Origin: Chloroflexota bacterium
Lineage (GTDB): Bacteria > Chloroflexota > Limnocylindria > Limnocylindrales > CSP1-4
Direction: 5' to 3'
Assembly (NCBI GenBank): GCA_021813655.1
Contig: JAKAJU010000085.1
Span: 1-32,734, forward strand
Length of the DNA stretch: 32,734 nucleotides
This document shows, piece after piece, positions 17,393 through 30,973 of this stretch. Position 1 is the first letter of the stretch, and each line of letters opens with the position of its first letter. Under the pieces are notes generated by a model that saw nothing but the letters and a program-made list of their open reading frames with translations, did no database searches and had not been told where the DNA came from. The position numbers and the translations under genes were made by a program.

Positions 17393-17422
17393 TGAGTAAG
17401 ATTACTCACCACTATGAGTAAT
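17393..17422 (+). promoter_or_regulatory. Operator of ATPase 1: TGAGTAA palindrome plus third half-site on the start codon
   Basis: TGAGTAA (17393-17399) and TTACTCA (17402-17408) form a perfect inverted repeat with a 2-nt centre. A third half-site, TGAGTAAT, begins at 17415 inside the start codon. The palindrome contains TAAGAT (17397-17402), a good -10, whose expected start point lies about 5 nt before the ATG at 17414. A protein on this site would block both initiation and translation. There is no Shine-Dalgarno. Confidence 0.75.
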
Positions 17423-18619
17423 CCGTCGACGCCCCAGTTCGAGCGGACGGCTGCGGCCGTGCTGGAGGCCCGGCTGCGGGAGCCGCGGCGCTTCATCCAG
17501 GTCGTCGCGGGACCGCGGCAGATCGGCAAGACGACGCTCGTCCAGCAGGTCCTCGCGCGCATGGCCGTGCCCGTGCGCTACGCGAGCGCGGATGAGCCCA
17601 CCCTGCGCGGTCCGGACTGGATCGCGCAGCAGTGGGAAGCGGCTCGGCTGGAGGCCGGCGGCGGCTCGGCGATCCTCGCGCTCGACGAGGTCCAGAAGAT
17701 CCCGGGCTGGTCGGAGGCCGTGAAGCGCCTCTGGGACGAGGACACGCTGGCGCGACGTCCACTCGCGGTCGTGCTGCTGGGATCCGCGCCGCTCCTCATC
17801 CAGCGCGGACTGTCCGAGAGTCTGACCGGCCGGTTCGAGGTACTGCGCCTGTCGCACTGGGCGTTCGACGAGATGCGCCAGGCCTTCGGCTTCTCACTCG
17901 ACGACTACCTGTACTTCGGCGGCTATCCGGGCGCGGCACCGCTCGTGGCGGAGCCGGAGCGTTGGCGGCGTTACGTGCTCGACTCACTCATCGAGACGGC
18001 GATTTCGCGCGACGTCCTCCTGCTCACGCGCGTGGACAAGCCCGCGCTCCTGCGCCGGCTGTTCGAGCTGGGCTCGCGATACTCGGGGCGGGTGCTCTCG
18101 TACACGAAGATGCTCGGGCAGCTCCAGGACGCAGGCAACACCACGACGCTCGCGCACTACCTCGACCTGCTCGCCGGCGCCGGCCTGATCGCGGGACTCC
18201 CGAAGTTCGCCGGCCAGGTCGTCCGCCAGCGCGGATCGAGTCCCAAGCTGCAGGTCCTGAACACTGCGCTGCTCACCGCACCCGCCGGCCTGCGGCCGGG
18301 GGACGCGCGGGCGGACCCGACCTTCTGGGGTCGGCTCGTGGAGTCCGCGGTCGGAGCCCACCTGGCGAACGCGGCGGCATCCGGCGAGTTCGAGCTCTTC
18401 TACTGGCGCGAGCGCAATCGGGAGGTCGACTTCGTCGTCCGGTCGGCAAGGCGGCTCACGGCCATCGAGGTGAAGAGCGGCCGCTCGCCGGAGGCTCTTC
18501 CCGGCATGGCCGCCTTCGTTGCCGCGTTCGATCCCGATCGGACGCTCCTCGTGGGCGGCGATGGTATCGCCCTGGAGGAGTTCCTCGCGAAGCCGGCGAG
18601 TCACTGGGTGCTCGCGTGA
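17414..18619 (+). CDS. ATPase 1: AAA_14/DUF4143 ATPase with REase-like C-terminus
   Basis: This 401-aa protein has a P-loop ATPase domain with Walker A GPRQIGKT (residues 33-40) and Walker B ILALDEVQKIPGW (87-99), plus a sensor strand VVLLGSAP. The middle (about 200-265) is helical with a winged-helix pattern, YTKMLGQLQDAGNTTTLAHYLDLLAGAGLIAGLP. The DUF4143 C-terminus ends in REVDFVV (336-342) and IEVKSGR (351-357), a full Asp/Glu-x-Lys nuclease-like motif. Related proteins are frequent in archaea, Chloroflexota and Bacteroidetes, often in many copies, and their function is unknown. No Shine-Dalgarno precedes the ATG. Its promoter is covered by a private palindrome, which suggests autoregulation through the winged helix. 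It lies 115 bp upstream of a second ATPase gene of a different subfamily. Confidence 0.9.
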   Translation: MSNPSTPQFERTAAAVLEARLREPRRFIQVVAGPRQIGKTTLVQQVLARMAVPVRYASADEPTLRGPDWIAQQWEAARLEAGGGSAILALDEVQKIPGWSEAVKRLWDEDTLARRPLAVVLLGSAPLLIQRGLSESLTGRFEVLRLSHWAFDEMRQAFGFSLDDYLYFGGYPGAAPLVAEPERWRRYVLDSLIETAISRDVLLLTRVDKPALLRRLFELGSRYSGRVLSYTKMLGQLQDAGNTTTLAHYLDLLAGAGLIAGLPKFAGQVVRQRGSSPKLQVLNTALLTAPAGLRPGDARADPTFWGRLVESAVGAHLANAAASGEFELFYWRERNREVDFVVRSARRLTAIEVKSGRSPEALPGMAAFVAAFDPDRTLLVGGDGIALEEFLAKPASHWVLA

Positions 18620-18672
18620 ACGGACGATCGGCGGAGGGTGGATCGAGCGCACCCGCGGCCAGGCCTCGCTGG

Positions 18673-18724
18673 TTGACGGCCACGGCCCTTAGTCTAAGAT
18701 GACTTAGTCGAAACGGTCTTAGAT
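18673..18724 (+). promoter_or_regulatory. Promoter and CTTAG operator cluster of ATPase 2
   Basis: TTGACG (18673-18678) and TAAGAT (18695-18700) form a promoter with a 16-bp spacer. The -10 lies inside CTAAG-ATGA-CTTAG (18694-18707), a palindrome, and this overlaps CTTAG-T-CTAAG (18688-18698), a second palindrome. A fourth CTTAG lies at 18718-18722, shortly before the GTG start. The half-site differs from those of ATPases 1 and 3, but the -10 hexamer is the same as that of ATPase 1. Confidence 0.7.
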
Positions 18725-18734
18725 AGGGATTGGC

Positions 18735-20198
18735 GTGAGGCACCCGTTCGTCGATCGGTACCGGGAGCGAGCCGACCTGGAGGACGCCTGGGCCTCTGAC
18801 CGGCCCGAGCTGGTGGTCGTCCATGGCCGCCGCCGCGTCGGGAAGTCGGCGCTCCTCGCGCGTTTCGCCTCCGGCAAGCCGATCTCGTACTACGTGGCCG
18901 CCGAGCAGCTGGAGCGCGACCAGCTGACGGACCTGGGCCGTGTGCTCGGGCCGATGTCCGTGGGGTTCCGCCGCGGTCGGCCGCCGCGTCTTGCCTTCCG
19001 AGACTGGGACGAGGCTCTGGCGGCCGTGGCCGACGCCGCCGCGACGCGCCGAGTCGGGCTCGTCCTCGACGAGTTCCCGTACCTTGTCGCCGCGGATCGG
19101 GCCCTGCCGTCGCTCATCCAGCGCTGGTGGGACGCGGTGGGCTCGCGATCCAACGTCGTCGTCATCCTCGCGGGCTCGCAGCAGTCGATGATGCGCTCGC
19201 TCGTCTCGTCCGAAGGCGCGCTGTACGGACGCCCCACGCGCGCGCACCACCTCCGACCGTTCGACTACTACTACGCCGGCCGCTTCGCATCCGCATGGGC
19301 TCCGGAGGACAGGATCCGGCTGTACGCGGTGGCCGGGGGCATCCCGGACTACCTCGAGGAGTTCGACACCTCACGGCCCCTCCGCGACGAGCTCCTCAGG
19401 GTCGCGTACTCGCCGGCCGGCAGGTTGTTCCGCGAGGCACCGGACCTGCTGCGGTCCGAGTTCACCGAGCCTCGCACCTACGAGACCGTCCTTCGCGGGA
19501 TCGCGAACGGATATGTGACACCGGGTGAGATCGCCACACAGGCGGGGCTCGCGGGCGCGAACCGCGTGACGCCGTACCTGGACAGGCTCATCGATCTGGA
19601 CCTGGTCGAGCGACGCGTCCCGCCGCCCGAGGCAGGGCAGCCGCGCTCGCGCACCAGCCAGTACGTGATCGCCGACCCGTACCTCCGCTTCTACTTCGCG
19701 CTCGTGGATCCGTGGCGCAGCGCGATCCAGCAGGGACAGGGAGCCGAGGTCCTGACAGAGACCTGGGGCGAGGAGCTCGACCGGTTCGTCAGCCGGACGT
19801 TCGAGGACGTCGCGCGCCAGCATCTCCGGCGCCTCGCCGGGACCGGCGCCGTCGGGCCGTTCACTACCGTAGGGTTCTGGTGGTTCAGCGGTGGGGATAT
19901 CGACGCCGCGGCCATGACCGGCCCGCGGCTGACGGCCGCCGGGTCCGCCAAGTGGACGCGGGAGGTCATGAAGCCCGGGGATCTGGCCGACCTGCGCCGG
20001 GACGCGGGGATCGTCGCGCCGGGCGACCGGCCCCGGCTGTTCCTCTACAGCCGCTCGGGATTCGACCGCAACGTCGCGGCCGAGCCCGACGTGACGCCCG
20101 TGACGCTGCGCGACCTGTACGCGGCGGACCTGGAGTACGAGCGGACGGAGCCCGGCCGGACGCGGTCGCGTGCTCGGTCAGATCAGGGACGGCGGTGA
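18735..20198 (+). CDS. ATPase 2: archaeal-type ATPase with winged helix and DUF234-like nuclease fold
   Basis: This 487-aa protein has Walker A GRRRVGKS (residues 31-38), Walker B VGLVLDEFPYL (107-117) and sensor VVVILAGSQQSMM. This pattern is that of the PF01637 archaeal ATPases of the STAND/MNS clade. A winged helix lies at about 250-297: IANGYVTPGEIATQAGLAG, RVTPYLDRLIDLDLVERRVP. The C-terminus, IADPYLRFYFALVDPWRS, matches DUF234, and WWFSGGDIDAAAM with GSAKW (about residues 382-407) would be its REase-like core; the usual Glu before the Lys is replaced. Translation starts at a GTG with only a weak AGGGAT upstream. It has its own promoter with CTTAG palindromes and is not obviously co-transcribed with its neighbours. 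Confidence 0.88.
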   Translation: MRHPFVDRYRERADLEDAWASDRPELVVVHGRRRVGKSALLARFASGKPISYYVAAEQLERDQLTDLGRVLGPMSVGFRRGRPPRLAFRDWDEALAAVADAAATRRVGLVLDEFPYLVAADRALPSLIQRWWDAVGSRSNVVVILAGSQQSMMRSLVSSEGALYGRPTRAHHLRPFDYYYAGRFASAWAPEDRIRLYAVAGGIPDYLEEFDTSRPLRDELLRVAYSPAGRLFREAPDLLRSEFTEPRTYETVLRGIANGYVTPGEIATQAGLAGANRVTPYLDRLIDLDLVERRVPPPEAGQPRSRTSQYVIADPYLRFYFALVDPWRSAIQQGQGAEVLTETWGEELDRFVSRTFEDVARQHLRRLAGTGAVGPFTTVGFWWFSGGDIDAAAMTGPRLTAAGSAKWTREVMKPGDLADLRRDAGIVAPGDRPRLFLYSRSGFDRNVAAEPDVTPVTLRDLYAADLEYERTEPGRTRSRARSDQGRR

Positions 20199-20320
20199 CC
20201 GCCTTCACCGGGTCAGGACGCTCCTGCGAGCGCCTCCAGGGGCGCCAGCAGTTGGTGTGGCGCTGCCGGGCTCTCACGCAAGCATGGGTGGTGGGGCCAG
20301 GTCTGAGCGCCACTCCCACA

Positions 20321-20377
20321 CTGTCCTTGCTAGAAGGACAGAATGACGACATACTGTCCCTCTAGCAATGACAGTAT
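20321..20377 (+). promoter_or_regulatory. Promoter and paired CTGTC/GACAG operators of ATPase 3
   Basis: Operator 1 (20321-20341) is CTGTCCTT-GCTAG-AAGGACAG, perfect in its 8-bp arms. Operator 2 has arms ATACTGTC (20351-20358) and GACAGTAT (20370-20377) around 11 nt. Aligned by hand as 21-mers, the two sites share 15 positions, and their centres are 33 bp apart (about three helical turns). TTGCTA (20327-20332) and CATACT (20350-20355), 17 bp apart, are the likely -35 and -10. Site 1 therefore covers the -35, while site 2 covers the -10, the start point and the ATG at 20368. Confidence 0.8.
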
Positions 20378-21680
20378 CGCACGACCTCCTCCGGCTCAAG
20401 CTCGCCGAGGCGTTGGCCACCCCCACCGTGGCTCTGACCCCTCGCGACGTGCGCGTGCCCGCCGTGCCCGGCAAGGCGCTCGCGGTGATCGGCGTGCGGC
20501 GCAGTGGGAAGACCTCGTTCATGGCCCGGCGACGCCAGGAGCGGATCGACGCCGGCCGGCCGTCCGAGTCGCAGCTGCTTCTGACCCTGGAGGATGAACG
20601 CCTCGCGGGCATGGACATCGCGGATCTTGGCTGGCTGCTCGATGAGCACGCCCGGCGGTTTCCGGACCTGGCCGGAAGCCGATCGCTGTACCTGGACGAG
20701 GCGCAGGCGGTCCCCGGCTGGGACGGGCTGGTGCGGCGGCTCATCGACTCCGGGCAGCAGGACATCCTGGTGTCGGGATCGTCGGCGCGGCTGCTGTCGC
20801 GCGAGATCGCCACGAGCTTGCGTGGGCGCGCCATGGAGGTGCTCGTCCACCCGTTCAGCTTCCGGGAGGCGCTACGTCATGCCGGCGCGGAGCCGACGGG
20901 CTCCTACGAGCACCTCGGGCCCGTCGAGCGCACGGCCTTGGACGAGCGGCTGCGCCGCTACCTGATCGAGGGAGGCTTCCCGGAGGCCCAGGGGTTGAGC
21001 GCCGCGGATCGCGCCGCCCTTGTTCGGGGCTACGTGGACATCGTCGTGCTCAGGGATGTCATCGAACGCCATGCCGTCAGTAACCCGGTCGCGCTCCGCT
21101 GGATCGAGCGTCAGTTGCTCGCCCAGCCGGGGGGGCCGTTCACGGTCAACAAGCAGCACGATGTACTGCGCAGCCAGGGGATCCCCGTGGGCAAGGACAC
21201 GCTCCACGCCTACCTGGCCTACCTCGAGGACGCGTTCCTCGTCCGAACGCTCGCCATGGACAGCGCGTCTGAGCGCCAGCGGATGACGAACCCACGCAAG
21301 GCGTACCCGGTGGACCCGGCGCTCAGTGCGCCGTTCGAGCGCACCGGACACGAGGCCGGAGGCGCCGCCCTCGAGACCGTCGTGCTTCTCGAGCTCGAGC
21401 GCCGCGGGTACGAGGCCGCTTACGTGCACACGCGCGCGGGGTTCGAGGTCGACTTCATCGCCAGGCGGGCCGGCGACCCACCGCTCCTGCTCCAGGTGTC
21501 GCTGGAGACCGAAGGGGACGCCACCTGGGACCGGGAGCTTCGAGCGCTTGTCGAAGCCGCTCCTCGCTATCCCGATGCCAGGGCCGTGATCCTGACCCTC
21601 GACGCCGCGCCGCCGTCCCGACCGCTGCCGCCCGCCATCACGTGGGTACCGGCCGCTCGATGGCTCCTGGAGGAGGCGGG

Positions 21681-21684
<4 letters not shown>
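20368..21684 (+). CDS. ATPase 3: AAA_14/DUF4143 ATPase coupled to HsdR
   Basis: This 438-aa protein has Walker A GVRRSGKT (residues 42-49), Walker [14 protein letters not shown] (106-118) and sensor [13 protein letters not shown] winged-helix segment spans about 235-297: [44 protein letters not shown]4143 follows with [19 protein letters not shown] (359-365) and LLLQVSLE (373-380). The usual catalytic Lys is missing in this last strand, so nuclease activity is doubtful. The start is nearly leaderless, with the initiation region inside an operator. The stop TGA overlaps the GTG start of HsdR, so both proteins are made from one message under this ATPase's own operators. Its sequence is clearly distinct from ATPase 1 despite the shared architecture. 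Confidence 0.9.
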
Positions 21685-24833
<3,149 letters not shown>

Positions 24834-24866: not shown

Positions 24867-26741
24867 GTGGCGCCCACGGTTGCCCGCGGTGAGGTAACGG
24901 AGTTGGCGCTGGAGTCCTTTCGAGTAGCGAACCAGAAGTCGCTCGTGCTCGCTGAGTGCACGAGCGTGCCGTCGCTCATGGTTGTCACTGGGCCGAACGG
25001 AGTCGGGAAGTCCTCGCTGCTGTACGCACTGAAGCGTCGCGAAGGGACTGTGTATACGCCGCCGGATACCCAAGTCCTGTACCAGCCACCTCACCGGGCG
25101 ATTCGACGACAACAGGTTCGGCGGCGCTGGGTCCAGACGCAGATGCGCGGGTTCACCGAGTTGTTGGCGGGCGACGATGTCGGCGGCTTCGAGGGCCTCA
25201 ACATCCAGTTCCCGCAACGAGCACCCGACAACGTGGATGAGAGCGGATCGACGCTGAAGTACTCGCTCGGGCGCGTCGAGAACCGTCGCCAAGGTGTGCT
25301 TGCCTCACTCGTGGATGCCGCGCGGGCCGACGGTCGTCCGCTCGATACCACGGCACTTCCCGACGTCTACGGGCCACTCAAGCGGCTTGTGTCGACGCTG
25401 GTCCCGCACCTGGACTTCCGCGGCATCTCATTCGACAACGAAGATGACATCCGCCTTACGTTCCGGGTCGGCGCGGACAGTGCAGCGTCGGACATCGACC
25501 TCAACGACCTGAGCTCGGGCGAGAAGGCCATCCTCTTGCTGTTCATGCCGCTAGTCGAGTCCGAGATCGACGGGCTGCTCCGGTCGCTGGGCGGATTGGT
25601 CGCGGAGCCGAACGCCCCGATGTCAAGGGTCATGCTCATCGATGAACCGGAGCAACACCTCCACCCAGAGCTACAGGGACGAGTCTTGGCGTACCTGCGG
25701 TCTGAAGCAGCGACCACAGGGCTTCAGGCAATCCTCGCGACACACTCGCCTGCGCTGCTGGACTTGGCGACCGACACGGAGCTCTACGTTCTGCGGCGTC
25801 CGGATGGCGATCGCAACCAGCTCCACCGGGTCGCAGACTCCAAGGAGCGGCTGGATGCACTGAGGGAGCTCGTCGGGAACCCGTATGTCGTTACCACAGG
25901 TCGGACCGTCGTGCTGGTCGAGGGGCCCCCTGGCGGCGGTGGCAACACCGACGTCCATCTCCTTGACCGCATCCATCCGAGCGCAACGAGATACACGTTC
26001 GTCCCAATGGGCGGGCGAGGCACCGTCGTGAGCGCAGTGCGCGGCCTCCGTCGAGAGGTCTCCGAGGCCAGGTTCGGCATTAACGTGCTGGGTATCGTCG
26101 ATCGTGACCGCGGGACGGACCACGAGGATGGCGTGGTTCCTTGGCCATTCACGATGATCGAAAACCTGCTCCTAGGTGACTCGCGCGCCATCGCCCGCGC
26201 TGTCGGAGAGGTATCCGGTGGCGTCACTCCGTCGACTCGGCAGGTCGACGAAGCGCTGGCGAGTGCTGCGTCCTCGTTGCGGGAGGACGAGATCAGGATT
26301 CGTGTTCAGGACTATCTAGGTCCTCGCACGATCCGCGTCGGCGGGACGTCGCTCAGCCAGGTCCGAGACGACTTCGCCGCAGCGGTGGCGGGACTCCACT
26401 CAGCATACGGTGATGACGCCAGGGTGTCCGACGTCGTGGCTCGCGCCGCGAATGAAGTTGACAGCGCACTTGCGGACGGCTCCTATCGCACCGCCTTCCG
26501 AGGGAAGCAGTTGCTGCATCGCCTGTTCGACATGCTCGGCGTTCACAACGTCCCGTTTGGCACTTTCCAGTACGCCCTGGCTAACGCTTGCGCGAAGTCG
26601 GACACCGTCCAAGCGCAGGTTCGCGAGGTCTTCGAGGCTCTCGATGCAGCCAGGGCGGCTCGAATTGAGGCCATCGCTGCGGAGCAACGAAGCATCGCGC
26701 TCGACAGCGCCGGGGTTGCCCAACTCACCCGCGGCGAGTGA
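24867..26741 (+). CDS. ABC-type ATPase fused to a TOPRIM (DUF4435/OLD-like) domain
   Basis: This 624-aa protein has an ABC/SMC-like ATPase with Walker A GPNGVGKSS (residues 42-50), signature DLSSGEK (214-220), Walker B VMLIDEPEQHLHPELQ (255-270) and H-loop ATHSP (291-295). A TOPRIM-type domain follows: VVLVEGPPGGGGNTD (348-362) gives the catalytic Glu and GIVDRDRG (409-416) the DxD. FTMIENLLLG afterwards resembles the E-N-LL motif of DUF4435. OLD nucleases and fused PARIS (AriAB) anti-phage proteins share this order; sequence alone does not separate them. The start is uncertain: GTG 24867, or TTG 24903 with GAGGT 7 nt upstream. It lies 33 bp after HsdR. Codon choice is visibly less GC-biased than in HsdR, a sign of separate origin. 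Confidence 0.85.
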   Translation: MAPTVARGEVTELALESFRVANQKSLVLAECTSVPSLMVVTGPNGVGKSSLLYALKRREGTVYTPPDTQVLYQPPHRAIRRQQVRRRWVQTQMRGFTELLAGDDVGGFEGLNIQFPQRAPDNVDESGSTLKYSLGRVENRRQGVLASLVDAARADGRPLDTTALPDVYGPLKRLVSTLVPHLDFRGISFDNEDDIRLTFRVGADSAASDIDLNDLSSGEKAILLLFMPLVESEIDGLLRSLGGLVAEPNAPMSRVMLIDEPEQHLHPELQGRVLAYLRSEAATTGLQAILATHSPALLDLATDTELYVLRRPDGDRNQLHRVADSKERLDALRELVGNPYVVTTGRTVVLVEGPPGGGGNTDVHLLDRIHPSATRYTFVPMGGRGTVVSAVRGLRREVSEARFGINVLGIVDRDRGTDHEDGVVPWPFTMIENLLLGDSRAIARAVGEVSGGVTPSTRQVDEALASAASSLREDEIRIRVQDYLGPRTIRVGGTSLSQVRDDFAAAVAGLHSAYGDDARVSDVVARAANEVDSALADGSYRTAFRGKQLLHRLFDMLGVHNVPFGTFQYALANACAKSDTVQAQVREVFEALDAARAARIEAIAAEQRSIALDSAGVAQLTRGE

Positions 26742-26804
26742 ACGAGGGGCAGTCACCAAGTTGCGCCCCACGCGACTCACCCCTCCCCATACCCCTCCCG
26801 GGTA

Positions 26805-26845
26805 TTGACAAACCCCTTGACAAGTCGCCCTCTCGGGGGCACGAT
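26805..26845 (+). promoter_or_regulatory. Likely dnaG-rpoD promoter with doubled TTGACA
   Basis: TTGACA occurs at 26805-26810 and 26817-26822. The second copy is followed, after exactly 17 bp, by CACGAT (26840-26845), close to the TACGAT used by crcB. The second -35 is itself a small palindrome, CTTG-A-CAAG. Transcription would start near 26852. Confidence 0.6.
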
Positions 26846-26857
26846 TCAGGCCTCGAC

Positions 26858-26880
26858 GGCGTGTCAAGACTTGACACGCC
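26858..26880 (+). promoter_or_regulatory. Perfect 23-bp palindrome just downstream of the start point
   Basis: The arms GGCGTGTCAAG (26858-26868) and CTTGACACGCC (26870-26880) are perfectly complementary around a single A. The palindrome contains TTGACA and TGTCAA, the same core as the two -35 copies upstream. It covers about +6 to +28 of the predicted dnaG transcript, so it could be an operator or an RNA stem. Confidence 0.7.
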
Positions 26881-26891
26881 TCTCGTCACGT

Positions 26892-26923
26892 CCGGCACCC
26901 GCGGGTGCCGGCCTCCGCAGGCC
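26892..26923 (+). terminator. Two consecutive GC-rich hairpins in the dnaG leader
   Basis: CCGGCACCCG (26892-26901) and CGGGTGCCGG (26902-26911) form a perfect 20-bp palindrome. GGCCT (26910-26914) and AGGCC (26919-26923) form a second 5-bp stem with a 4-nt loop. No T-run follows. They may end the upstream ATPase/TOPRIM transcript or attenuate dnaG-rpoD. Confidence 0.45.
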
Positions 26924-26996
26924 GGGCGGGGGCTGACCGCGGCGCCCGGGCACGATGCGCGGGCCAGGCACCCGCGTGGGTCCTTCGGGAGATCGA

Positions 26997-29177
26997 TTGG
27001 CCGTCGGCGTCGCCGCAGAAGTGAAGAGCAGGCTCACGATCGCCGAGGTCGTCGGCGAATCGGTGCAGCTGAAGAAGGCGGGAACCACCCTCAAGGGCCT
27101 GTGCCCGTTCCACGCGGAGAAGACGCCGAGCTTCATCGTGACGCCCGCCCGCGACACGTGGCACTGCTTCGGATGCGGCGAGGGCGGGGACGTCTTCAGC
27201 TTCGTCATGAAGCGCGACGGGATCACGTTCCCGGAGGCGCTCCGGCTGCTCGCCGCGAAGGCGGGCGTGGAGATCGACGACAGGACCCGCAGGGAGGACG
27301 CCCGCAAGGCCAGGCTCCGCGAGGTCCTCGAGACGTCGATCGCCTTCTACCACACGGTCCTGCAGCATCGGACGGGGCAGGCGGCGCTCGACTACCTGCG
27401 GGGCCGAGGCTTCACGGACGAGACGATCGAGCGCTTCCAGCTCGGGTATGCCCCGGGCGGCTGGGACACGATGAGCCGGACCCTCCAGGAGCGCCGGGGG
27501 ATCGCGCCGGCGGAGCTGGCCGAGGTCGGCCTCACAACGCCGCGGGCCTCGGGGCGCGGTGCCTACGACCGATTCCGGGAGCGGATCATCTTCCCGATCC
27601 GGGACGCCTCGGGCGGGGCGATCGGCCTGGGCGGGCGGATCCTGCCGGTGGTGGAGGGGGCGGCTGGCGGCGCGCATGGGAACGGCACGAGCGGCCAGGG
27701 CGGCCCCGGCGCGGCCACCCCAGCGGGCGGCCCGACCGCGGCCCCCGACCGCGGCCCCAAGTACCTCAACTCGCCGGCGACGCCGCTCTTCGACAAGTCG
27801 CGCACCCTCTACCTCATCGACCACGCCAAGACCTCGCTCCGCAAGAGCGGCCAGGCGGTGATCGTCGAGGGCTACACGGATGCCCTCATGGCGCACCAGG
27901 CGGGCTTCACCGACGTCGTCGCGAGCCTCGGGACGGCCCTCACGGCGGGCCAGGTCGCGCTCGTCACGCGCTACGCGGAGAAGGTCGCGCTGGCCTATGA
28001 CGTCGATCCGGCCGGCCAGAAGGCGGGCACGTTCGGGATCACCGAGCTGTCCAACCTCATCAGCGAGCTCGCGCAGGGCGCGGCGGCCGGCACGGGCCCC
28101 GACGGCAAGGGACTCCGGCTGACGGAGGTCGGCGTCGTCCGGCTGCCGGAGGGACGCGACCCCGACGAGGTGATCCGGGAGACGCCCGACCTCTGGCGCG
28201 AGGCGGTCCGCACGCCGCAGCCGATCCTCGCGTACCTGATCGACACGCAGGCGGAGCGCGTGGACCTCAGGACGCCGGAGGGCCGCAAGCGCCTCGTCGA
28301 CGCGGTCCTCCCCACACTCCGCCGCGTGACCGACCCGATCCTCCGCGACAGCTACCTCCAGGTGCTCGCGAAGCGCAGCGGCGTCGAGGAGCGGGTGCTC
28401 CTCGAGGCGCTCCACCAGGGCGGCCGATCCGCGCGGGTGGACGGGGGACGGCACGGCGCAGGGAGCCCGGGGACCGGCGGCCGGCCCGGTGCGGGGGGGA
28501 CGGCCGGTCCGGGCGGCGGGCAGGATCCCGCCGCCGGCCGGATCACCGCGGACGCCGTCATCGCGGCACGGGACCTGCCGGATCCCGAGGAGCTCCTGCG
28601 GGGCGTGGATCTCGTCGAGGCCGAGCTCCTCCACCTCCTGCTCGTGGTCCCGGACGAGCAGCTGCGGGTCGCGGACCGGCTGGCGCCGGCGATGTTCTCG
28701 TCCGAGCTGGCGCGCGGGCTCTGGCGGGCGATGCTCGCCGACCGCGAGGCGGACGCGGTGGTGCGCGACGCGGCGGCGGGCCCGGCCGGGGCCGCGCATC
28801 CCGGCGAGCCGGGGCGCTTCGATCGTGGCCGCTTCCTCGCCTCGCTCGACGAGGAGTCGCGGGCGCTCGCGATCGCGCTGTACGCGAGCCGCGCCCCGAT
28901 CCCCGGGATGGGGGACGGCGGCGACGGGGGCACGGTCGACCTCGAGCTCGTCGACCAGGGCGTCGAGCAGTGCCTGCTCCGCCTGGAGCTCGACCGGCTC
29001 GACGAGCGGGGGGCATGGACGCGCGGCGAGCTCGCCGACGCGGAGCTGCGCGGAGACGCCGACGCGATCTCCCGACTGATGGATGACGAACGACAACTGA
29101 ACGAGGCCCGACTGTCGCTGCACAGGCGCATCGAGCAGGCGAGCCTCCTCGCAAGGACCGCCGGAGGAAGACCGTGA
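26997..29177 (+). CDS. dnaG: DNA primase DnaG
   Basis: This 726-aa protein makes RNA primers at the replication fork. The CHC2 zinc finger is Cys36-His39-Cys57-Cys60 ([23 protein letters not shown]). The catalytic core includes [24 protein letters not shown] and [15 protein letters not shown]. The TOPRIM residues are in [14 protein letters not shown] (about 286-299) and LAYDVDPAG (about 331-339). A C-terminal helicase-binding region ends the protein. It is longer than usual because of two Gly/Pro-rich inserts at about 221-252 and 479-515. The start is probably TTG 26997 with GGGAG 5 nt upstream; an in-frame ATG at 26955 has no Shine-Dalgarno. The stop overlaps the rpoD start (GTGA), so the two are coupled, as in the macromolecular-synthesis operon. 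Confidence 0.95.
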
Positions 29178-30973
29178 CCAAGGACGCACTCGACGAGCAG
29201 CTGGTGGAGGCGGTGCTGGCGCCGCGCCGCCGAGGGAAGCGCGGTGCGCAGGACGCCGCGCCCGCGACCGGGCGGCCCGTACCCGACGCCGACGACGAGA
29301 CCTCGATCGACGACGCGCTCGCAGCGCCGGGCGACGACGAGGAGCCCGGCCCGTCGGTCGTCGCCGACGCGGACGTGGAGCTCGAGGCGGAGGTCGAGGT
29401 CGGGGCGGGCATCGCGGTCGCCGACCTCGGCGAGGACGTCGGCCTGCGGCTCTCGAACGGCGACGGCCGGCCGATCGACGCGGTCGCGGTCATCGACGCC
29501 CCCGTGAAGCTCGACGCGAAGGAGCTCGAGGAGCCCACCGCGGAGGAGCTCGAGGCCCTCTCGGCCGACATGATCGGGATCGACGACCCGGTCCGGATGT
29601 ACCTGAAGGAGATCGGGAAGGTCGCCCTGCTGACGGCGGAGGAGGAGGTCGTCCTCGCCAAGGCGATCGAGCTCGGCGAGCAGATGGCGGAGGAGCCGTG
29701 GAAGGCGCTCGTCAGTCTCCACGAGTGGACGCTCCACGACACCGAGCGCAAGACCCGGACGACGAAGCGCCAGCACGCCCTGCCGCATGGCGCCGATGCC
29801 CATCGGCTGGTCCGCGAGGGCCTCTCGTGGGACGGCGCCCGCGATCTCCTCGTCCCGACGCCGGACTTCAAGTTCACCAAGGCGGCGCGAGAGGCGCAGA
29901 CCGACGATGCGAAGGCGCTCCTGAAGAAGGCGAAGGAGCTCGTCGCCGCGTACAACGCAAGCCTCGCCGAGGCCGACCCCGCTGCGGTCGACGCGTTCAT
30001 CACGCTGCTCGACTGGTCCTACCTCTCGGTCCACACGACGAACCTCGACGCGCGCGACAACCCCGGCCTCCGGGCCGTCTACGACTGGACCCGCGACGAC
30101 GTCGCCCTGCCGGCGCTCCGCCGCTGGGTGGACGCCGGGTACGAGGCCGACTTCCTCAAGTTCCTCGGCTACGACCCCGAGCTGCCGTCCACGACGAAGC
30201 TCGCGCACCGCAAGGGCGTCATCGTCGTCATCGGCCGCGACGCCCGCGAGCAGCTCACGAGCGCGAACCTGCGGCTCGTCGTCTCGATCGCGAAGAAGTA
30301 CATCGGCCGCGGCATGAGCTTCCTCGACCTGATCCAGGAGGGGAACATCGGTCTCATCCGGGCGGTCGAGAAGTTCGACTACGAGAAGGGCTTCAAGTTC
30401 TCCACGTACGCGACGTGGTGGATCCGGCAGGCGATCACGCGTGCCATCGCCGACCAGGCGCGGACGATCCGCATCCCGGTCCACATGGTGGAGACGATCA
30501 ACCGGCTCATCCGCGTCAGCCGGCAGCTTCTCCAGGAGCTCGGCCGCGAGCCCACCGTCGAGGAGATCGCGAACGCGATGTCCACGCCGGAGCTCCTCGT
30601 CACCCCCGAGAAGGTCCGCGAGATCATCAAGGTCAGCCAGGAGCCTGTGAGCCTCGAGACCCCGATCGGCGAGGAGGAGGACAGCCATCTCGGCGACTTC
30701 ATCGAGGACCGCGGGGCGCTCGCCCCGGCCGAGGCCGCGAGCCACCAGCTCCTCAAGGAGCAGGTCGAGGCGGTCCTCGACTCGCTCACCGGCCGTGAGC
30801 GGCGGGTCCTTCAGCTCCGCTTCGGCCTGGAGGACGGGCGTGCCCGGACTCTCGAGGAGGTCGGCAAGGAGTTCAACGTCACCCGCGAGCGGATCCGGCA
30901 GATCGAGGCGAAGGCCCTGCGCAAGCTGCGCCACCCGAGCCGCAGCCGCAAGCTCAAGGACTACCTGGAGTAG
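29174..30973 (+). CDS. rpoD: Primary sigma factor RpoD/SigA
   Basis: This 599-aa protein directs RNA polymerase to housekeeping promoters. An acidic N-terminus (1-130) precedes region 1.2, [22 protein letters not shown] (137-158). A long non-conserved region of about 180 residues follows (171-350). Region 2 (about 357-430) reads [29 protein letters not shown] and [15 protein letters not shown], essentially invariant in primary sigmas. Region 3 is at 431-505, and region 4 ends with [33 protein letters not shown] 29174 overlaps the dnaG stop, and GGAGGAAG precedes it. A long insert between regions 1.2 and 2 is usual in proteobacterial RpoD but absent from most Gram-positive SigA, so it is a useful lineage marker. 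Confidence 0.96.

Follow-up and report, generated by a model that had tools for sequence, protein, structure and literature searches.

The DNA upstream of dnaG in the window (the whole analysed stretch of 32,734 nucleotides, from a 3.0-Mb metagenome-assembled genome of Chloroflexota) probably serves the dnaG-rpoD operon as promoter and leader. It would combine a place in a CsoR regulon that reaches as far as replication initiation, primase and primary sigma with a leader hairpin of sigma operons. The likely repressor site in this region, judged by its sequence, is a CsoR-type palindrome at 26789-26805 and not the TTGACA/TGTCAA palindrome that lies downstream of the promoter.

The dnaG-rpoD operon and its promoter

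The primase gene dnaG (26997-29177, plus strand; Pfam Zn_ribbon_DnaG, DNAG_N, Toprim and DnaB_bind) is followed by rpoD, encoding the primary sigma factor (29174-30973, plus strand; Sigma70 regions 1.2, 2, 3 and 4). In relatives, an rpoD orthologue of ~93-96% identity, with regions 2-4 as the query, adjoins dnaG. The start of dnaG is likely the TTG at 26997 and not the in-frame ATG at 26955 picked by the ORF finder; GGGAG at 26987-26991 precedes this TTG, and the start region is kept in relatives. The Chloroflexota family used for comparison, which consists of uncultured soil bacteria, is probably the GTDB family CSP1-4 (PMC13212565), and it includes the CSP1-4 genome (L128). We found dnaG in 86 of 107 family genomes and gathered upstream regions from these; three genomes of the window's own genus are absent from the set, one with a contig that ends inside dnaG (G019) and two without a locus (G018, G020).

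Two TTGACA boxes precede the gene, as the first-pass annotation of this DNA had stated. The first (26805-26810, plus strand) is fused to the right arm of the CsoR-type operator, and TATTGACA stands 3' of the operator in many relatives. The second (26817-26822, plus strand) is the -35 element of the dnaG-rpoD promoter, a register in which many relatives have TTGACA or TTGTCA, and it is separated by 17 bp from the -10 element CACGAT (26840-26845, plus strand). The annotation had called this -10 plausible, and its position holds up: in 76 aligned promoters the family -10, TANNNT, ends exactly 17 nt 5' of the core of the downstream palindrome, and CACGAT fits this register. As a sequence, however, CACGAT is weak, agreeing with the consensus at only three of six positions, and a consensus promoter scan called no promoter. 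Transcription is predicted to start near 26852. The earlier suggestion of joint control of primase and primary sigma factor is supported to the extent that a real shared control region precedes the two genes.

A palindrome conserved across the family

The palindrome GGCGTGTCAAGACTTGACACGCC (26858-26880, plus strand; about +7 to +29) is perfect over 23 bp, again as first annotated. Its size alone is weak evidence, because about 0.85 perfect palindromes with arms of at least 11 bp and a centre of 0-8 nt are expected by chance per window, and about 2.4 with arms of at least 10 bp; since such a size is not rare in a GC-rich window, we tested its conservation. This is the decisive evidence, as the core is unique in the genome and its position is fixed across the family. 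The core TGTCAAGACTTGACA (26862-26876, plus strand), of the form TGTCAAG-N-CTTGACA, occurs once in the window's genome even when two mismatches are allowed. Across the family, TGTCAAGNCTTGACA is present in 78 of 107 genomes and in 24 of 27 genera, almost always as a single copy, and the reversed control pattern gave zero matches in the 107 genomes. Every family dnaG with an intact upstream region carries the palindrome, the exceptions being contig ends or runs of N, and in the 76 aligned promoters the 15-nt core differs only at its central base and, in a single sequence, at one further position. The palindrome was not found in 30 genomes from other families of the class, nor upstream of dnaG in 50 further loci, mostly from other Chloroflexota (L133-L182). 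Some copies lie outside this arrangement: genus g19 has a second TGTCAAG-N-CTTGACA palindrome ~140 bp upstream of the dnaG leader (L053, L198), and an isolated copy after a upp-like gene (L195, G009:C2:50082) lacks the promoter architecture and is possibly a chance occurrence or a terminator.

The annotation had left room for the palindrome to belong to the adjacent restriction/ATPase island or to its junction, and such an island, which carries genes for HsdR and AAA ATPases, does end at 26741, ~115 bp from the palindrome. Yet 24 of 27 genera have the palindrome at this same place in the promoter, and among 59 relative loci searched, a homologue of an island protein lies nearby only in G010 (two overlapping loci). 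The alignment of dnaG upstream regions from relatives, proposed with the annotation as a check, found the palindrome family-wide at the promoter and also beside other neighbour genes, which refutes an origin at the island junction; we regard any such derivation as extremely improbable. As to the island itself, the gene for the HsdR-type restriction subunit near dnaG spans 21642-24833 and is preceded by a row of three genes, two of them AAA_14/DUF4143 and one ATPase_2/DUF234 (17414-21684). An HsdR homologue of 86% identity lies directly upstream of dnaG in G010 (L026/L123), a member of another genus, and HsdR near dnaG in two genera suggests a shared insertion place or a recent transfer.

A second proposal of the annotation was one DNA-binding repressor that reads TGTCAAG/CTTGACA half-sites at both the -35 element and the palindrome, and thereby competes with sigma and blocks promoter clearance. 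The promoters do offer material for such a protein: 75 of 76 promoters have TTGACA or TGTCAA half-sites on the upstream side of the palindrome, the CTTGWCAAG at the -35 position in many genomes is itself symmetric, and the inner 15 bp are kept more strictly than a hairpin requires. However, most genomes hold a single exact palindrome, so that neither a regulon nor a self-controlled regulator is seen. When other spacings of TGTCAA/TTGACA were allowed, 0-4 scattered sites were found per genome, mostly at the dnaG promoter and with no consistent second target. Nor are the half-sites upstream uniform in their number, their spacing or their orientation, and they overlap with bases that the -35 element requires anyway; DNA binding also leaves unexplained the symmetric, G-U-tolerant changes in the outer pairs of the palindrome described below. 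With this RNA-like covariation, the single-repressor proposal is unsupported and, in our judgement, unlikely. A LexA/SOS site, as found in the E. coli dnaG operon, was rejected as well: CTGT-N9-ACAG is formed only in some of the variants (CTGT, GTGT, TTGT), and the core occurs once in the window's genome at up to two mismatches.

The palindrome as a probable leader RNA hairpin

In 76 sequences, the outer four pairs of the palindrome comprise 291 Watson-Crick and 8 G-U combinations, no A-C and 5 other combinations, and pairing ends sharply beyond the fourth outer pair. One of these pairs occurs as C-G, G-C, U-A and U-G and another as G-C and C-G. Among 56 distinct sequences, 99.6% of cells are paired and four of the ten pairs have changed on both sides; the covariation score was matched by 0 of 500 shuffles, a test inflated by the relatedness of the sequences, and slid structures fail. 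The stem-loop is part of the minimum-energy fold in 72 of 76 leaders. The occurrence of G-U intermediates but not of A-C fits RNA from the dnaG strand, and this asymmetry together with the two-sided changes argues that the palindrome works, at least in part, as an RNA stem-loop at the 5' terminus. The six inner pairs never vary and thus contribute no covariation support; their invariance may reflect DNA binding.

An information peak at columns 21-33 after the core marks a conserved 3' leader motif with the consensus TANNCATGTCCGG, which reads TCGTCACGTCCGG in the window (26883-26895, plus strand). A small leader ORF at a conserved ATG-like motif was rejected, as start codons and frames are not kept, and no Rfam family scored over its gathering threshold, the only hit being a chance match to SAM-IV (E 4.8, 14.4 bits vs 38). 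The stacked hairpins of the first-pass annotation, a 20-bp inverted repeat at 26892-26911 and a small hairpin at about 26910-26923 (together 26892-26923, plus strand), do exist in the window but are not kept in relatives; their mean z of about -0.2 over 76 relatives is ordinary for GC-rich DNA, and we rejected these two GC-rich hairpins as conserved elements and consider them probably incidental.

Elsewhere than at the dnaG promoter, second copies of the element, consisting of the promoter, the palindrome and usually the 3' motif, stand before additional sigma-70 genes. There are five such sigma paralogues, four with the exact core (L193, L194, L197, L199) and one with a single mismatch (L293, in G023), identified as sigma genes by Pfam for L193 and by sequence resemblance for the others; many other sigma paralogues lack the element. 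The TAC-X9-GTA spacing of the CsoR-type operator is also present at all four exact-core copies. By this distribution, the leader element appears to belong to the sigma-70-type operons of the family.

Sigma-dependent pausing that is sensitive to the sigma level occurs in E. coli (PMC4604602, PMC7876045), and sigma itself could in principle mediate the effect of the leader: its region 4 would be engaged again by TTGACA in the transcribed strand, polymerase would pause at about +25-35, and the sigma supply would be limited by feedback. The element tracks sigma-70-type genes and gives the transcript a consensus -35 hexamer near its start, as this mechanism would have it. However, sigma pauses need a -10-like element, which lies ~11 bp downstream of the -10 in the promoter-proximal case (PMC7876045), and there is no TANNNT in the first 30 transcribed bases (26852-26881), while the conserved TANNCAT is wrongly spaced. 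Pausing would also leave the perfect palindrome and its covariation unexplained, and we consider it quite unlikely as the role of the leader.

A CsoR-type operator upstream of dnaG

Just left of the interval covered by the first-pass annotation, and absent from its list, lies a conserved palindrome that matches the published core of a CsoR-type (type 2) operator, ATACCC-CTCCC-GGGTAT with TAC-X9-GTA (ATACCCCTCCCGGGTAT; 26789-26805, unstranded). In the type-2 consensus of S. lividans CsoR, ATATACCCCTNAGGGGTATAT, ATACCC and GGGTAT are conserved on either side of 5 nt of free sequence, and CsoR binding requires TAC-X9-GTA (PMC3902906). The window site fits ATACCC-N5-GGGTAT exactly and is the sole ATACCC-N2-6-GGGTAT in its genome. 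It resembles the type-2 operators of S. lividans csoR and copZA in this pattern, in TAC-X9-GTA and in its G-tracts. Among 80 dnaG upstream regions, TAC-X9-GTA is present in 58, compared with 0-2 for other spacings and 1.1 expected from shuffles; the remaining 22, including several whole genera, keep the leader without the operator.

The operator sits at a few discrete offsets from the leader palindrome. It lies just upstream of the -35 element at dnaA and at the window's dnaG, overlaps the -35 at dnaG in some genera, and covers the -10 at csoR and copA and the -35 at trxB. Simple occlusion is less obvious at dnaA and at the window's dnaG, because there the operator is upstream of the -35 and not over the promoter.

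CsoR-type sites and the putative copper sensor across the family

We searched 29 family genomes with the regulon pattern ATACYCC-N3-GGRGTA (spacer of 1-4 allowed) and found 107 CsoR-type sites versus one for the reversed control; an X8 spacing, used as a further control, gave no matches in the family, and 29 genomes of the class outside the family have 0-1 sites each. In 17 genomes we assigned the sites to genes by tblastn and inspection, with Pfam on examples. A site is present at dnaA in 16 of these genomes, at trxB in 15, at copA or copB in 15 and at csoR in 11. The window's own genome has sites at dnaA (L250), copA (L277), trxB (L278) and dnaG-rpoD; its csoR promoter lies beyond a contig end. 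Occasionally a CsoR-type site adjoins some other gene, among these YHS-domain genes, a gene for a DksA/TraR zinc-finger protein and a DUF417 gene (L301, L309, L313 and L316, in genera g8 and g10; L289; L304). The dnaA promoter is strongly conserved in the family as CCTTGCG, 17-18 nt and GGTGCTAT, with the CsoR-type site ~12-30 nt upstream (L248, L250, L252, L254, L256, L261, L264 and others).

A CsoR-family protein is encoded in all 29 genomes, and the Cu(I) signature C-x24-H-x3-C is found at 30 of 31 CsoR loci. The locus that lacks this copper-binding cysteine signature is L241, in G061, and among the 29 genomes G061 alone has no operator site. The CsoR of the window's genome (G000:C140) has the domain (PF02583, E 3.2e-26), the metal site C-x24-H-x3-C and RLSR, an instance of the RLxR DNA-contact motif, features that together point to a Cu(I)-sensing CsoR; its closest solved structure is S. 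lividans CsoR, and it scores below the NCBIfam equivalog cut-offs.

The ATACCC-N5-GGGTAT sites at dnaA and dnaG might instead serve some factor that is not CsoR, or be remnants without effect. Many dnaG promoters have no such site, and the position of the site relative to the promoter differs between genera, as would suit this explanation. On the other hand, the same sequence with the exact spacing stands at csoR and the copper pumps, the sites were lost together with the degeneration of the sensor in G061, and the site at dnaA is kept in 16 of 17 mapped genomes. We therefore think another reader, or none, improbable, and favour CsoR as the protein that would bind these sites.

Discussion

From the sequences compared here we infer the following mechanism. 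A repressor of the CsoR family that has Cu(I)-binding residues would bind the operator at 26789-26805 beside the -35 element and, as in known CsoR systems, release it upon binding Cu(I). One sensor would govern copper export (copA, copB), thioredoxin reductase (trxB), csoR itself and dnaA, and replication initiation, priming and the supply of primary sigma factor would be tied to copper/thiol status. The transcript would begin ~7 nt 5' of a short stem-loop whose sequence, UGUCAAGNCUUGACA, is invariant. A conserved single-stranded motif comes next, and this leader may act after initiation, through transcript stability, translation or a protein-binding hairpin. If copper does raise DnaA, primase and sigma factor, one may speculate that this replaces copper-damaged zinc-ribbon primase and accompanies thiol repair, or that copper is taken as a sign of oxic growth.

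The system of S. lividans likewise has CsoR sites at csoR and Cu-ATPase genes and a regulator with C-x24-H-x3-C and RLxR, whereas the regulon proposed here adds dnaA, dnaG-rpoD and trxB. Copper pumps and thioredoxin reductase also come together in Lactococcus, where the copper repressor CopR acts on trxB1, a thioredoxin reductase gene, as well as on copper pumps; CopR is of the CopY type and has no relation to CsoR. The parallel is of one putative copper repressor over both functions; the CopR regulon, unlike that proposed for the family, is not known to hold replication or sigma genes. In the macromolecular synthesis operon (rpsU-dnaG-rpoD in E. coli, dnaG-sigA in Bacillus and Staphylococcus), primase and primary sigma are cotranscribed behind a regulated promoter (PMC2824700), and dnaG and the primary sigma gene stand together here as well. 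Unlike that operon, there is no rpsU or yqxD upstream of dnaG, and in place of its multiple sigma promoters, or of the LexA site of E. coli, we find a CsoR-type site, as a putative control, and a conserved leader hairpin. The 5'-terminal stem-loop of E. coli ompA mRNA stabilises its transcript, and the leader hairpin is similarly within a few nucleotides of the 5' end, but the invariance of its stem and loop sequence goes far beyond the needs of stability and it is confined to the sigma operons of one family. We found no earlier report linking CsoR to dnaA, dnaG-rpoD or Chloroflexi, which is weak evidence as subscription papers were mostly outside the search.

Our broader proposal, on which we are evenly divided, is that a Cu(I)-sensing CsoR serves as a global regulator of replication and housekeeping transcription in this family, through dnaA, dnaG-rpoD, trxB and copper export, and that the family-specific invariant 5' hairpin provides a further layer of control over that primary sigma operon. 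Metal-sensor repressors are commonly thought to be limited to narrow detoxification regulons. The control of the supply of the primary sigma gene is poorly known outside model bacteria, and the leader hairpin would be a new conserved regulatory element of a primary sigma operon. If true, a CsoR regulon with dnaA, dnaG and rpoD would be a direct link, by a single repressor, from the copper/redox state of the cell to the copying and reading of its genome.
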